From contig NZ_JADFBY010000002.1 of NCBI RefSeq assembly GCF_015223065.1, positions 496,001-560,000 on the forward strand: DNA of 64,000 nt. The letters are read 5' to 3'. Source of the DNA: Mucilaginibacter sp. JRF (GTDB lineage: Bacteria; Bacteroidota; Bacteroidia; Sphingobacteriales; Sphingobacteriaceae). The position numbers and the translations under genes are program-made. This document shows positions 7,980-56,820 of the stretch, piece after piece (within the stretch, counting starts at the first letter, position 1; each line of letters begins with the position of its first letter). The notes beneath the pieces were generated by a model that saw only the letters and a program-made list of their open reading frames with translations, did not search any database and had not been told where the DNA came from.

Positions 7980-8105
7980 AAGCAATTTCACTGCTAATGA
8001 GTATAGGGGGGGATGTAGACGGCTTTGTTTTATAAGGTGCTTTTTTAATTCCCTCCCCACGGGAGGGTTAGGGAGGGGTTTCGCAAACCATCGCTTTTAA
8101 GATCT

Positions 8106-8172
8106 TGTCATTTCGAGCGACAGCGAGAAATCTGCACGCGTTCATAGTCAGGCGACAGATTTCTCCTCGTAC
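8106..8172. repeat. Family-1 palindromic repeat (right arm truncated)
   Basis: Left arm TGTCATTTCGA...GAGAAATCTG and right arm CAGATTTCTCCTCGTAC are inverted partners around a variable centre. The outer right arm (TCGAAATGACA) is missing, and a CT-rich hairpin begins at the break. Related copies lie at 8623, 16899, 27419, 36535, 36957 and 56633. Confidence 0.85.
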
Positions 8173-8233
8173 AACCCCTCCTAAATCCTCCCCGAGGGGG
8201 AGAACTTTAATATAATTATGTTCTTCAAAAAGA

Positions 8234-8560
8234 GCGTAGGCCTGGCAGAAAACCGGGCCAGGGAGTATGGCCTTGCGGGCGGAAGGTTTTTTCTGCCTTG
8301 ACTTTTGGTTACTTTGTGGCTAAGACAAAGTAACTGGGCTCTGCGCCCAAGAGCAGGCCGACTTTCATAAAAAGTACAACCACTTAATAAAAGCACTTTC
8401 TCAAAATCGCTTCATTACCTGTCCTAAATTTCTTTTGAGCGACCAAAAGAAACAAAAGTCGCCGGCTACGCCCTGCCCGGTGAAAGGTTATGCTTTGGCT
8501 GGGCTTGTGCTACTCCGGGCATTTCTGATGCCGGTAATAAAGGTTATTTAAAGGTTGTGC
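8234..8560 (+). repeat. Composite structured repeat, copy 1
   Basis: Core 1 (8234-8362, 129 bp) and core 2 (8461-8560, 100 bp) are separated by a variable middle. Core 1 holds three hairpin-forming stretches: GGCAGAAAACC with GGTTTTTTCTGCC, a perfect 10-bp stem GTTACTTTGT/ACAAAGTAAC (8308-8334), and TGGGC/GCCCA. The same two cores occur at 36659 and, inverted, at 56249. The minus strand has a frame through core 1 that is open in all copies, but substitutions fall mainly outside paired positions, so I treat it as a structured non-coding repeat. Confidence 0.85.
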
Positions 8561-8622
8561 TTTGGTTTTGTTAATCAATACGTCATTGCAATGACGTCGT
8601 TTTTTAAAATGCCTAATAAACT

Positions 8623-8707
8623 TGTCATTTCGAAGCGATAGCGAGAAATCTGCACGCGTTCATTTGTCAAGCGACAGATTTCTCCTCGTACCTCGATCGA
8701 AATGACA
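8623..8707. repeat. Family-1 palindromic repeat (complete)
   Basis: Complete copy: TGTCATTTCGA at the left, TCGAAATGACA at the right, with the inner arms GAGAAATCTG and CAGATTTCTC around a centre of about 20 bases. It follows the first composite repeat, with a collapsed family-2 palindrome (8580-8597) between them. Confidence 0.85.
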
Positions 8708-8994
8708 ACACATTTATTAAAATCCTCTCCCTCGGGGAGGATTATGAGGGGTATTTATAGGCACTTTGTGTAATAACTCCACAACTTTTTTAGCCGCACG
8801 AATCTGGCACGTCAACGGCAAAATAATTATAAAATAAATTTAAATATCTGATAATTAGATACTTAAAATGTATTTCAAATGGGGTTTATTGTGCTTTTAA
8901 TGATGCTTTTAGCAGAGTGGTAGTCTTATTGTATGTTATTCAGTAATTGTTTGGTATAATAAATAAAGTAATTAAAATTTAAAATCCGAAAACT

Positions 8995-16695: not shown

Positions 16696-16790
16696 AGGCG
16701 GCAAAGGTAGTAAAAGCAAGGGTGCTTATTGTCTGGAAAATGCTACTTTCCTTATGTAATTATCTTCGTGGGCACGGTTTTTAGCCAATT

Positions 16791-16876
16791 ACGTCATTGC
16801 GAGGTACGAAGCAATCCTCGAGCGATTTGTCCTGAAGAATATCCTAAAGAGATTGCTTCGTACCTCGCAATGACGC
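16791..16876. repeat. Family-2 palindromic repeat
   Basis: The arms ACGTCATTGCGAGGTACGAA and TTCGTACCTCGCAATGACG are inverted partners, with inner GCAATC/GATTGC pairs. A second full copy is at 27319, and collapsed versions lie at 8580 and 36498. It sits in the gap between the divergent HAD start and the metallophosphoesterase stop. Confidence 0.9.
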
Positions 16877-16898
16877 GTTTTTTATGTGTTATCCACAA

Positions 16899-16979
16899 TG
16901 TCATTTCGACGGAGGAGAAATCTGTACATGTTCAATAGCAAAGCGACAGATTTCTCCTCGTACCTCGTTCGAAATGACA
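16899..16979. repeat. Family-1 palindromic repeat
   Basis: Complete copy with outer arms TGTCATTTCGA/TCGAAATGACA and inner GAGAAATCTG/CAGATTTCTC. It lies 22 bp after the family-2 palindrome and is followed by a CT-rich hairpin at 16989-17022. This tandem of families 2 and 1 recurs at 27319-27502. Confidence 0.9.
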
Positions 16980-17034
16980 ATTTTTTAAAATCCTCCCCAA
17001 GTGGGAGGATTTAGGAGGGGTTCCTGTATACCCT

Positions 17035-27318: not shown

Positions 27319-27404
27319 GCGTCATTGCGAGGTACGAAGCAATCTCCGAGCGACTTATCTTGCGGATCGTCCTACAGAGATTGCTTCGTACCTCGCAATG
27401 ACGT
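27319..27404. repeat. Family-2 palindromic repeat
   Basis: Complete copy with CGTCATTGCGAGGTACGAAG and its inverse CTTCGTACCTCGCAATGACG around a centre containing CTCCGAGCGACTTATCT. It lies immediately before a family-1 copy, the same order as at 16791-16979. Confidence 0.9.
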
Positions 27405-27418
27405 GATTATAGTTTTTT

Positions 27419-27502
27419 GTCATTTCGAAGCGCCAGCGAGAAATCTGTCTGCGTTTAATAACAAAGCGAGAGATTTCTCCTCGTACCTCGTTCGAAATGA
27501 CA
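27419..27502. repeat. Family-1 palindromic repeat
   Basis: Complete copy with outer TGTCATTTCGA/TCGAAATGACA arms. It sits 6 bp from the response regulator's stop codon. Confidence 0.9.
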
Positions 27503-27508
27503 TGTTAT

Positions 27509-27889
27509 TTAAATAGTCGGCCTTGCTATCAATGCCTCTATCTTCCCTAACAAATCATTCATCTCAAACGGCTTGGCCAAAAAATCATCGGCGCCGGCTT
27601 GCATGGCCGAATCCTTGATATCCTTACTGGCCGATATCATGATCACCGGGATGTGCTTTTTGGTAGCATCGCCCTTAAGTGAACGGCAAATATCACGACC
27701 GTCCTCGCCGCTCATCCAAATGTCAAGCAGCAGCAAGTCGGGTAAGTTATCCTGTAGTGCAAGTACTGCCGAACCCTCAACGGTGGAGGTAACGGCGTAG
27801 CCCTCAAATTCAAGCAGCATCTCAACGGCATCAACAATCCCGGGGTCGTCATCTGCTATCATTATTTTTTTATGTTTCAGGCTTGTCAT
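27509..27889 (-). CDS. Single-domain response regulator (receiver only)
   Basis: 126 residues, a CheY-like receiver with acidic pocket ADDDP (13-15), phosphoacceptor Asp56 (LLLLDIWMSG), Ser in MISASKD and Lys in LAKPFEM. No output domain. It starts 39 bp after the stop of the histidine kinase and is almost certainly its partner, perhaps a phosphorelay intermediate. The downstream target is unknown. Confidence 0.9.
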   Translation of the reverse strand: MTSLKHKKIMIADDDPGIVDAVEMLLEFEGYAVTSTVEGSAVLALQDNLPDLLLLDIWMSGEDGRDICRSLKGDATKKHIPVIMISASKDIKDSAMQAGADDFLAKPFEMNDLLGKIEALIARPTI

Positions 27890-36493: not shown

Positions 36494-36534
36494 TCTCGTT
36501 ATTGCAATGACGCGTTTTTTATATTTACTCACCC

Positions 36535-36599
36535 TGTCATTTCGACGGAGGAGAAATCTGTACATGTTCATTAGTAAAGCGGGAGATTTCTCCTCGTAC
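36535..36599. repeat. Family-1 palindromic repeat (right arm truncated)
   Basis: TGTCATTTCGACGGAGGAG to GAGATTTCTCCTCGTAC, missing the outer right arm exactly as at 8106-8172, with a CT-rich hairpin starting at the break in both. Confidence 0.85.
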
Positions 36600-36658
36600 A
36601 CCCCCTCCTAAATCCTCCCCGAGGGGGAAGACTTTTATAAAAACTTCAAATAAAAAGC

Positions 36659-36940
36659 GCGTCGGCCTGGCAGAAAACCGGGCCAGGGAGTATGGCCTTG
36701 TGGGCGGAAGGTTTTTTCTGCCTTGACTTTTGGTTACTTTGTGTCTAAGACAAAGTAACTGGGCCCTGCGCCCAAGAGCAGACTGACGATAATTGTAAGC
36801 ACAACCTACTGAATAAAGCACAAACTCTTAATAAAGCATCGCCGGCTGCGCCCTGCCCGGTGAAAGGGTGTGCTTAGGCAGGTATTGTGCAGCTCCGGGC
36901 ATTTCTGATGCCGGTAGGAGAGGTTATTTAAGGGCTGTGC
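36659..36940 (+). repeat. Composite structured repeat, copy 2
   Basis: Core 1 (36659-36787, 129 bp) and core 2 (36841-36940, 100 bp), with a shorter and unrelated middle than copy 1. Core 1 differs from copies 1 and 3 at a handful of positions, mainly in hairpin loops and flanks. The perfect 10-bp stem GTTACTTTGT/ACAAAGTAAC is intact. Confidence 0.85.
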
Positions 36941-36956
36941 TTTTTTATTTTAATCT

Positions 36957-37037
36957 TGTCATTCCGAACGAGGTACGAGGAGGAATCTGTATACGTTCTA
37001 TAACAAAGCGACAGATTTCTCCTTCGTCGAAATGACA
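36957..37037. repeat. Family-1 palindromic repeat (variant)
   Basis: The left half reads TGTCATTCCGAACGAGGTACGAGGAGGAATCTG, in pieces matching the usual right arm, and the right half reads CAGATTTCTCCTTCGTCGAAATGACA. It follows composite copy 2 directly, as the copy at 8623 follows composite copy 1. Confidence 0.85.
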
Positions 37038-37068
37038 AAAATAATAGGAGAAAAGTTAGCCCAGACCA

Positions 37069-56173: not shown

Positions 56174-56248
56174 GCTGCAAATATGGTAATTTTAGGGGAA
56201 TGTGAGGGTCTTAAAGAAGAACCTCGCAAGTGAGTGAATTTTGCAAAT

Positions 56249-56604
56249 GCACAAACCTTAAATAACCTCACCAACCGGCATCAGAAATGCCCGGAGTAGC
56301 ACAAGTCTTACCAAAGTAGGAACTTTCACCGGGCAGGGCGTAGCCGGCAGTTTTTCTTTGGTTACTTTCTTTTTTCTGCAAAAAAGAAAGTGACAACCAC
56401 TAACGATAAATAAAGTACATCCTTGTGCTCATGAGCAGTGAAGGTACTTTAATCAGTGGTTGTGCTTTTGCCATCGTCAGTCTGCTCTTGGGCGCAGAGC
56501 CCAGTTACTTTGTCTTAGACACAAAGTAACTAAAAGTCAAGGCAGAAAAAACCTTCCGCCCGCAAGGCCATACTCCCTGGCCCGGTTTTCTGCCAGGCCG
56601 ACGC
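56249..56604 (-). repeat. Composite structured repeat, copy 3 (inverted)
   Basis: On the minus strand, core 1 (56604-56476) is followed by a variable middle and core 2 (56348-56249), the same order and core lengths (129 and 100 bp) as copies 1 and 2. The middle has its own hairpin (GTTACTTTCTT...AAGAAAGTGAC). The core-1 10-bp stem is intact. Confidence 0.85.
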
Positions 56605-56632
56605 TCTTTTTATTTACACTCATTATTGTTTT

Positions 56633-56713
56633 TGTCATTTCGACGGAGGAGAAATCTGTAGGCGTTCGATAACTAAGCGACAGATTTCTCCTCGTACCTC
56701 GTTCGAAATGACA
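56633..56713. repeat. Family-1 palindromic repeat
   Basis: Complete copy with outer TGTCATTTCGA/TCGAAATGACA arms. It lies 28 bp from core 1 of composite copy 3, which repeats the arrangement of a family-1 palindrome beside core 1 at the other two sites. Confidence 0.9.
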
Positions 56714-56820
56714 AAATTTAGTAGTTACTGAAATAGATCGTAACAAAAAAAAGGACCGACATTTTACTATCGATCCCTCAGTTGGCTCAGGGCGTTTACT
56801 CCTGATATTTGAAAAAATTA

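Follow-up and report, generated by a model that had tools for sequence, protein, structure and literature searches.

The usual picture of interspersed repeats in bacteria is one of short hairpins, and many of these are read by Y1 transposases. REPINs are high-copy, intergenic, palindrome-based repeats that occur as inverted pairs, leave no target duplication and undergo lineage-specific expansions. BIMEs are mosaics of REP elements located between genes. In the sections of the literature consulted, REP units are hairpins of 21–65 nt with a tetranucleotide tag (PMC6006769, PMC3733652), and atypical secondary structures are described beside the subclass 2.6 TnpA-Y1 genes of Bacteroidetes (PMC6006769). 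The STAXI motif, as given in the consulted part of its description, consists of a single pseudoknot in two or three repeats; it often lies near genes for DNA handling and possibly acts as single-stranded DNA (PMC2864571, Weinberg 2010). The composite repeat reported here shares with the REPIN/RAYT systems a high copy number, intergenic location, a palindromic basis, inverted pairing, the absence of target duplication and lineage-specific expansions. No description of it was found by title and abstract among open-access PMC papers.

The repeat was noticed in a window of 64 kb, which is the whole stretch of DNA analyzed, and was then searched in the genome that contains it (4.9 Mb draft, 33 contigs). 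The first-pass annotation had placed two cores in three copies, always in the same order. These coordinates are confirmed for core 1 (8234–8362 (+), 36659–36787 (+), and 56476–56604 (−)) and core 2 (8461–8560, 36841–36940, and 56249–56348 (−)), and the order is constant. The best E values in the genome (4.6e-62 for core 1, 1.6e-46 for core 2) are far beyond chance. For core 1, 40 places were scored and listed among 47 candidates; for core 2, there were 40 places among 54 candidates, one of which (L051) is a match of only 55 bases. Including an interrupted copy (L046), the genome carries at least 41 copies of core 1, which we call alpha. Downstream of these 41 lies core 2 in 35 cases, a core-2 variant with TTTAATTTTC/GAAAATTAA in place of the GC stem in 5, and neither in 1. 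Core 2 without a detected core 1 alongside occurs at five more places (L047–L051, the last being the 55-base match). The composite measures 294–398 bp, typically ~340 bp, over 35 copies, with a median pairwise identity of 85%; the best pair, at 97%, lies on different contigs. The middles between the cores, previously called unrelated, turned out to be mosaics of recurring modules. Among these modules are alternative forms of the second unit's own hairpin, which is absent from copy 2. Several middles (L014, L016, L034, L037, and L039) contain an optional insert, CTTAGCGATAGCGATCTCATGAGCACCAATAAAAAACAAAC; similar sequence interrupts core 1 in L046 and in copy L172 of M. sp. UR6-1, as if it were a further small element inserting into the composite.

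Table 1 Coordinates of the features described. Positions refer to the 64-kb window unless a locus is named
Feature	Position	Strand	Remarks
Copy 1	8227..8565	+	AAAAAGA 5′ end, alpha, modular middle, inverted second unit, GC-TTT 3′ end
Copy 2	36652..36945	+	Short middle without second-unit hairpin
Copy 3	56244..56611	−	Inverted; middle with CTTTCTTTTTTGCAG hairpin module
Alpha unit (core 1)	8234..8362	+	At least 41 genome copies; matches in 59/72 same-genus relatives
Helix A	8244..8297	+	8244–8252 with 8289–8297, plus 8253:8286
Helix B	8308..8334	+	Perfect 10-bp hairpin stem, loop 8318–8324
Pseudoknot helix X	8297..8324	+	CTTGAC (8297–8302) with loop of B; its first base is also the last of helix A
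Second pseudoknot	8336..8357	+	C stem GGGC/GCCC (8336–8339/8345–8348); D stem TCTGC (8340–8344)/GCAGG (8353–8357)
Second unit (core 2 with its hairpin)	8411..8565	−	Read on minus strand
Second-unit hairpin	8429..8462	−	Stem 8429–8437/8444–8452; proposed loop pairing GCGAC (8439–8443) with GTCGC (8458–8462)
Other palindromic repeats	8105–8215, 8588–8752, 16777–17022, 27319–27513, 36504–36640, 36948–37044, 56626–56719		
Y1 transposase gene	L089 1700–2460		182 aa; NHVH, WQ, YLHNNP; flanked on both sides by CTGCCGCGAGTTTAGCG..AACTCGTGGTGTAGCAC
Alpha-like direct arrays, another family	L142 12891–15734, L143 5155–10653, L141 5676–6854		Some ~300 bp apart

Alpha consists of a long helix (A), a hairpin (B) whose loop pairs upstream (helix X), and, at its 3′ end, another knot (helices C and D). 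Core 1 had been read as three hairpins, one with a perfect 10-bp stem. The stem holds (GTTACTTTGT/ACAAAGTAAC, 8308–8317/8325–8334), but the three hairpins are not independent, as two of the loops pair outside their own hairpin. To assess the fold, 35 sequences were aligned, of which 8 come from this genome and 27 from relatives. Across this genus alignment, five of the nine contiguous pairs of helix A are changed on both sides. One of these five shows all four Watson–Crick types (A-U 17, C-G 7, G-C 7, U-A 3), and the 8253:8286 pair that closes the helix flips between G-C (17) and C-G (15). Pairing in helix B reaches 98.6%. Taken together, helices A, B, and C contain 60 cells changed on both sides versus 17.1 in shuffles, and none of 500 shuffles was as high.

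The loop pseudoknot X, between the B loop and the upstream CTTGAN, is paired in 98 of 105 cells (null mean 88.2, maximum 94; 0/5000). Its classes are GAT/ATC (20 sequences), GAC/GTC (7), GGG/GCC (2, with two of three pairs), and GTC/GAC (1), and the five remaining single sequences have one mismatch each. In copy 1, the loop of this GTC-T-AAG class reads GGC-T-AAG, with one mismatch. A wider set that includes other families, with 96 of 100 rows parsed, 71 of them distinct, and some rows with a mis-placed hairpin retained, gave a mean helix X length of 5.18 with the own partner versus 4.69 when partners were swapped (0/5000). For the second knot, stem C occurs as GGGC/GCCC or GGCC/GGCC, and stem D as CTGC/GCAG, CCGC/GCGG or, in L066 and L068, CGCCC/GGGCG. 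Swapping partners of helix D lowered the mean from 4.2 to 3.43 (0/5000); 100 rows yielded 87 tails, 71 with a C stem and 60 distinct ones that were scored, with the D stem mistaken for C in some rows. Helix D is 89% paired and broken in some sequences. It was counted together with helix Y (GGCCYG/CGGGCC), a candidate third pseudoknot at the 5′ end. This gave 20 cells changed on both sides versus 6.2 in shuffles, all 20 in D and involving two D pairs, although two of the five measures were not above the shuffles (pairs with both-side change, 130/500 as high; further pair types, 500/500). As none of the six Y pairs is changed on both sides, helix Y is unproven and was dropped. Compensatory changes thus support the alpha helices and both pseudoknots; the covariation is strong against shuffles that ignore relatedness and is not tree-corrected. 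The covarying pairs for which the first-pass annotation had proposed to look are therefore present, and they bear out its conclusion that selection acts on structure, as in a non-autonomous element or a family of structured RNAs.

Core 2, when read on the minus strand, has a hairpin on its 3′ side whose loop can pair with the bases immediately upstream. Since core 2 thus carries an alpha-like hairpin on the other strand, every copy consists of two folded units in inverted orientation. Close inverted units, the arrangement that defines REPIN-type pairing, are found for 40 of the 41 alpha copies. That the two cores are similar units in inverted orientation, and that pseudoknots are the hallmark of core 1, had not been foreseen. 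The second-unit pairing comes in two types, GCAG/CTGC and GCGN/TCGN, whose halves co-occur as expected in 39 of 40 parsed copies, with one exception; a permutation over the nine distinct combinations was not significant (1419/5000 as high). The alleles have probably moved as whole modules, and hence this pseudoknot is less supported than those of alpha. Two other ideas about core 2 were dropped. The variant core 2 lacks a hammerhead-like motif that had been considered, and matches of the core-2 motif in two Burkholderia, one Balneolaceae and one Bryobacterales record comprise only 20–24 bases and were taken as chance.

By DNA search, core 1 is found in 59 of 72 relatives of the same genus and in 1 of 47 other genomes, in addition to this genome. 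Plasmids and phages gave no match. Core 2 gave three weak matches among the 72 relatives and good matches in M. sp. UR6-1 and M. roseus LMG 28454, both of which repeat its exact motif; together with the long alignments to these two species given below, this places the genome most probably in Mucilaginibacter. At E ≤ 1e-3, a covariance model of alpha (R1) has matches in 42 of the 296 genomes from the phylum. Those above 40 bits come from this genus, from a second genus in its family (G237) and from a second family (f15), and the weaker ones may represent the hairpin part alone. Alpha of the relatives is often paired with an inverted form of 250–290 nt that carries the same knots (ten loci); this long form has matches in 67 of the 72 relatives and none in this genome. 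The arrangement of the arms differs between genomes. Among the matches listed (84 of 110 in G026, 27 of 34 in G067), adjacent pairs are divergent in 25 of 25 cases in G026 and convergent in 4 of 4 in G067, where a further pair (L225) is of the divergent kind. Family f15 carries its units in direct arrays. Many rows from alpha-like units of direct arrays keep the loop pseudoknot, and the 3′ knot is absent by eye. Gene-cassette arrays were considered for the clustered matches in other families (L141–L150) and rejected, because the units sit between ordinary genes in L141 (ORFs) and L142 (ORF list). We also noticed that only 1 of 34 strong alpha matches on a single 6.0-Mb contig (G026:C1) falls within 1.6–4.1 Mb, which is ~42% of the contig; alpha is possibly depleted far from the replication origin there.

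Occupied places were compared with UR6-1 and M. roseus, to which long stretches of the window align at 73–90%. At the place of copy 1, where both flanks are conserved, these two species have other sequence, including a small ORF by eye. No unit lies alongside the one conserved flank available for each of copies 2 and 3 in either species. Conversely, both have a unit near the place corresponding to window 17023–17034, again with both flanks conserved, where this genome has none. The copy at L041 is absent from UR6-1. Other places are shared: the L014 copy is common to UR6-1 (L159) with differing middles, and core 2 alone is common to L050 and L156 of UR6-1. At L039 in UR6-1 and at L040 in M. 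roseus, only the second unit is present. No clean insertion into a recognizable empty site was seen in the three species compared, and gain and loss cannot be separated with certainty because the intergenic flanks are rearranged in all three. Occupancy that differs in this way from one related species to the next fits an element.

Neighboring genes were called by a simple longest-ORF rule, and both neighbors were available for 39 of the 41 copies. Relative to the strand of the element, they are convergent in 19 cases, in the same direction in 8 and 7, and divergent in 5. Copies thus lie mostly at gene 3′ ends. The same intergenic regions are crowded with other interspersed palindromic repeats (GTCATTTCGA..GAGAAATCTG, CCTCCCC..GGGGAGG, CGTCATTGCGAGG..), which often abut the element; sequence similar to these neighbors is also present in UR6-1 and M. 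roseus.

We read the composite, with its observed copy number, architecture, sharp ends, compensatory evolution and occupancy differences between species, as a non-autonomous, selfish, REPIN-like interspersed element of ~340 bp that is recognized through its folded single strand, and we give this reading a probability of about 60%. Mobility and the mover belong to its inferred part. The fold would serve as the signal for recognition. Once exposed as a single strand, either in lagging-strand DNA or possibly as RNA copied from the element, the units would fold and could then be handled in trans by a structure-reading enzyme, a mode of action already suggested for HUH/Y1 transposases with REP repeats. 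Modules shuffled by exchange from copy to copy would produce the mosaic. Copies would persist mainly between convergent genes, perhaps because insertions upstream of genes are purged. A single fixed mobile unit is not established by these data, because the arms are arranged in opposite ways across genomes and direct arrays occur in another family.

As a special case of this reading, the composite could be the REP/REPIN (or TIR) system of an HUH Y1 transposase (RAYT or TIRYT) that was lost from this genome. Resemblance to REPINs lies in the inverted pairing, the many copies, the position between genes and the lack of target duplication, and a Y1 gene (PF01797) was found in 36 of the 41 genomes searched within the genus, this genome not being counted among the positives. 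Here, PF01797 had no match at E ≤ 1e-3 (5 candidates scored). A Y1 protein from G021 used as a query found relatives in G002 and G023 but had no match at E ≤ 1 in this genome and none in G032 and G036; all three of these carry alpha and lack a match to either Y1 query. When R1 was run over 28 Y1 loci chosen from the PF01797 matches, a single significant neighboring unit appeared (L089, in G021). This case looked promising for a link to RAYT genes, but the Y1 gene, which lies between genes resembling hemA and hemC, is flanked on both sides by its own, different repeat, so that this repeat stands between the gene and the unit. The other 27 loci have no significant unit. Moreover, the units of 130–290 nt differ from REPs of 21–65 nt. 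We thus consider a lost Y1 system possible, though the balance of the evidence leans against it.

Alternatively, the units may be a functional family of structured RNAs, such as small RNAs or 3′ UTR elements (e.g., terminators or mRNA stabilizers), that happens to exist in many copies. Covarying base pairs are present, adjacent covarying pseudoknots are typical of RNA, copies lie mainly at gene 3′ ends, and some places are common to different species. Helices A and B contain more G.U than A.C when the written strand is read (41 versus 17 of 1695 cells; p 0.002, relatedness ignored). Helix C was omitted from this test owing to the poor alignment of one of its pairs; when C is included, the counts are 44 G.U and 33 A.C. 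The excess is a mild sign that the written strand folds, as RNA or as single-stranded DNA. Against an RNA family, the copies show no strand preference (8 versus 7 between same-direction genes), sites turn over between species, and one transcript carries only one unit in sense because the two units are on opposite strands. No Rfam family matched in the window at the gathering score, and seven other loci run in E-value mode gave only below-threshold matches that look like chance. Hence, we regard an RNA family as doubtful.

A broader proposal, which we put forward only as speculation, is a Bacteroidota-wide class of mobile repeats defined by the pseudoknotted fold instead of by sequence. Its members would be recognized in their folded single-stranded state by an enzyme so far unconnected with repeats, with the long partner ancestral and alpha a miniaturized derivative. 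Since the two Y1 searches found none in this genome, that enzyme would not be Y1.

The composite could also be an old, immobile repeat whose copies are kept alike and shuffled only by recombination with each other. The module mosaics and the same alternative stems in different species point to conversion or exchange, and some places are common to UR6-1. However, other occupied places differ between related species, and the 97% identical copies are on different contigs, which makes immobility improbable. Still less likely is a MITE of the classic type, with a DDE transposase acting on the short inverted ends AAAAGC/GCTTTT to move it. Conservation begins with AAAAAG[AC] and ends after GC-TTTTG, so the ends are sharp with short inverted complementarity. 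The first-pass annotation had associated a mobile element with sharp ends and target-site duplications. The former are present, but no duplication was found, as the mean longest word shared by the flanks is 4.49 versus 4.61 expected (35 copies); a MITE would also not need a conserved, covarying internal structure. Lastly, a family of small protein genes on the minus strand of core 1 can practically be set aside: the frame, once described as open in all copies, is open in copy 1 but has frame-breaking indels relative to it in 18 of 40 copies (the interrupted L046 included), with 386 non-synonymous versus 101 synonymous codon differences, and coding thus fails the annotation's own test of mostly synonymous change, in line with its view that the repeat is not a protein gene.

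The preferred reading of a REPIN-like element can now be set against the known systems. REPs are short palindromes (~20–65 nt) with an unpaired 5′ tag, whereas the conserved units here are ~130 and 250–290 nt long, alpha has two covarying pseudoknots, and no linked Y1 gene was found; the 5′ end of alpha has no constant tag (GCGTAGG, GCGTCGG, GCGGTGG, and others, by eye). The structures beside subclass 2.6 TnpA-Y1 genes, in the part of their description consulted, are similar in that they come from the same phylum and have copies elsewhere in the genome, and the L089 Y1 protein resembles the motif row given for this subclass (PMC6006769). They differ in that the L089 gene is flanked by another repeat and our units were not found beside the 27 other Y1 loci. 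Like STAXI, as far as the consulted text describes it, the composite has tandem pseudoknots and may act as single-stranded DNA, but its two pseudoknots are different from each other, it is interspersed in tens of copies, and neither the window nor the seven other loci reached an Rfam gathering score. With BIMEs, it has module mosaics between genes in common, although its modules are alternative stems inside one structured unit. The composite has the look of a mobile element that hitch-hikes, its structural type being undescribed, and the searches tied no transposase to it. As a family, it is abundant (up to 110 model matches in one genome) and keeps two pseudoknots by compensatory mutation throughout the genus, with a weaker form in other families. 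The three genomes that carry alpha and in which no Y1 was found pose a testable question, namely which enzyme reads a pseudoknotted single strand, DNA or RNA, and the covariance model provides a handle for annotating many unexplained intergenic repeats.
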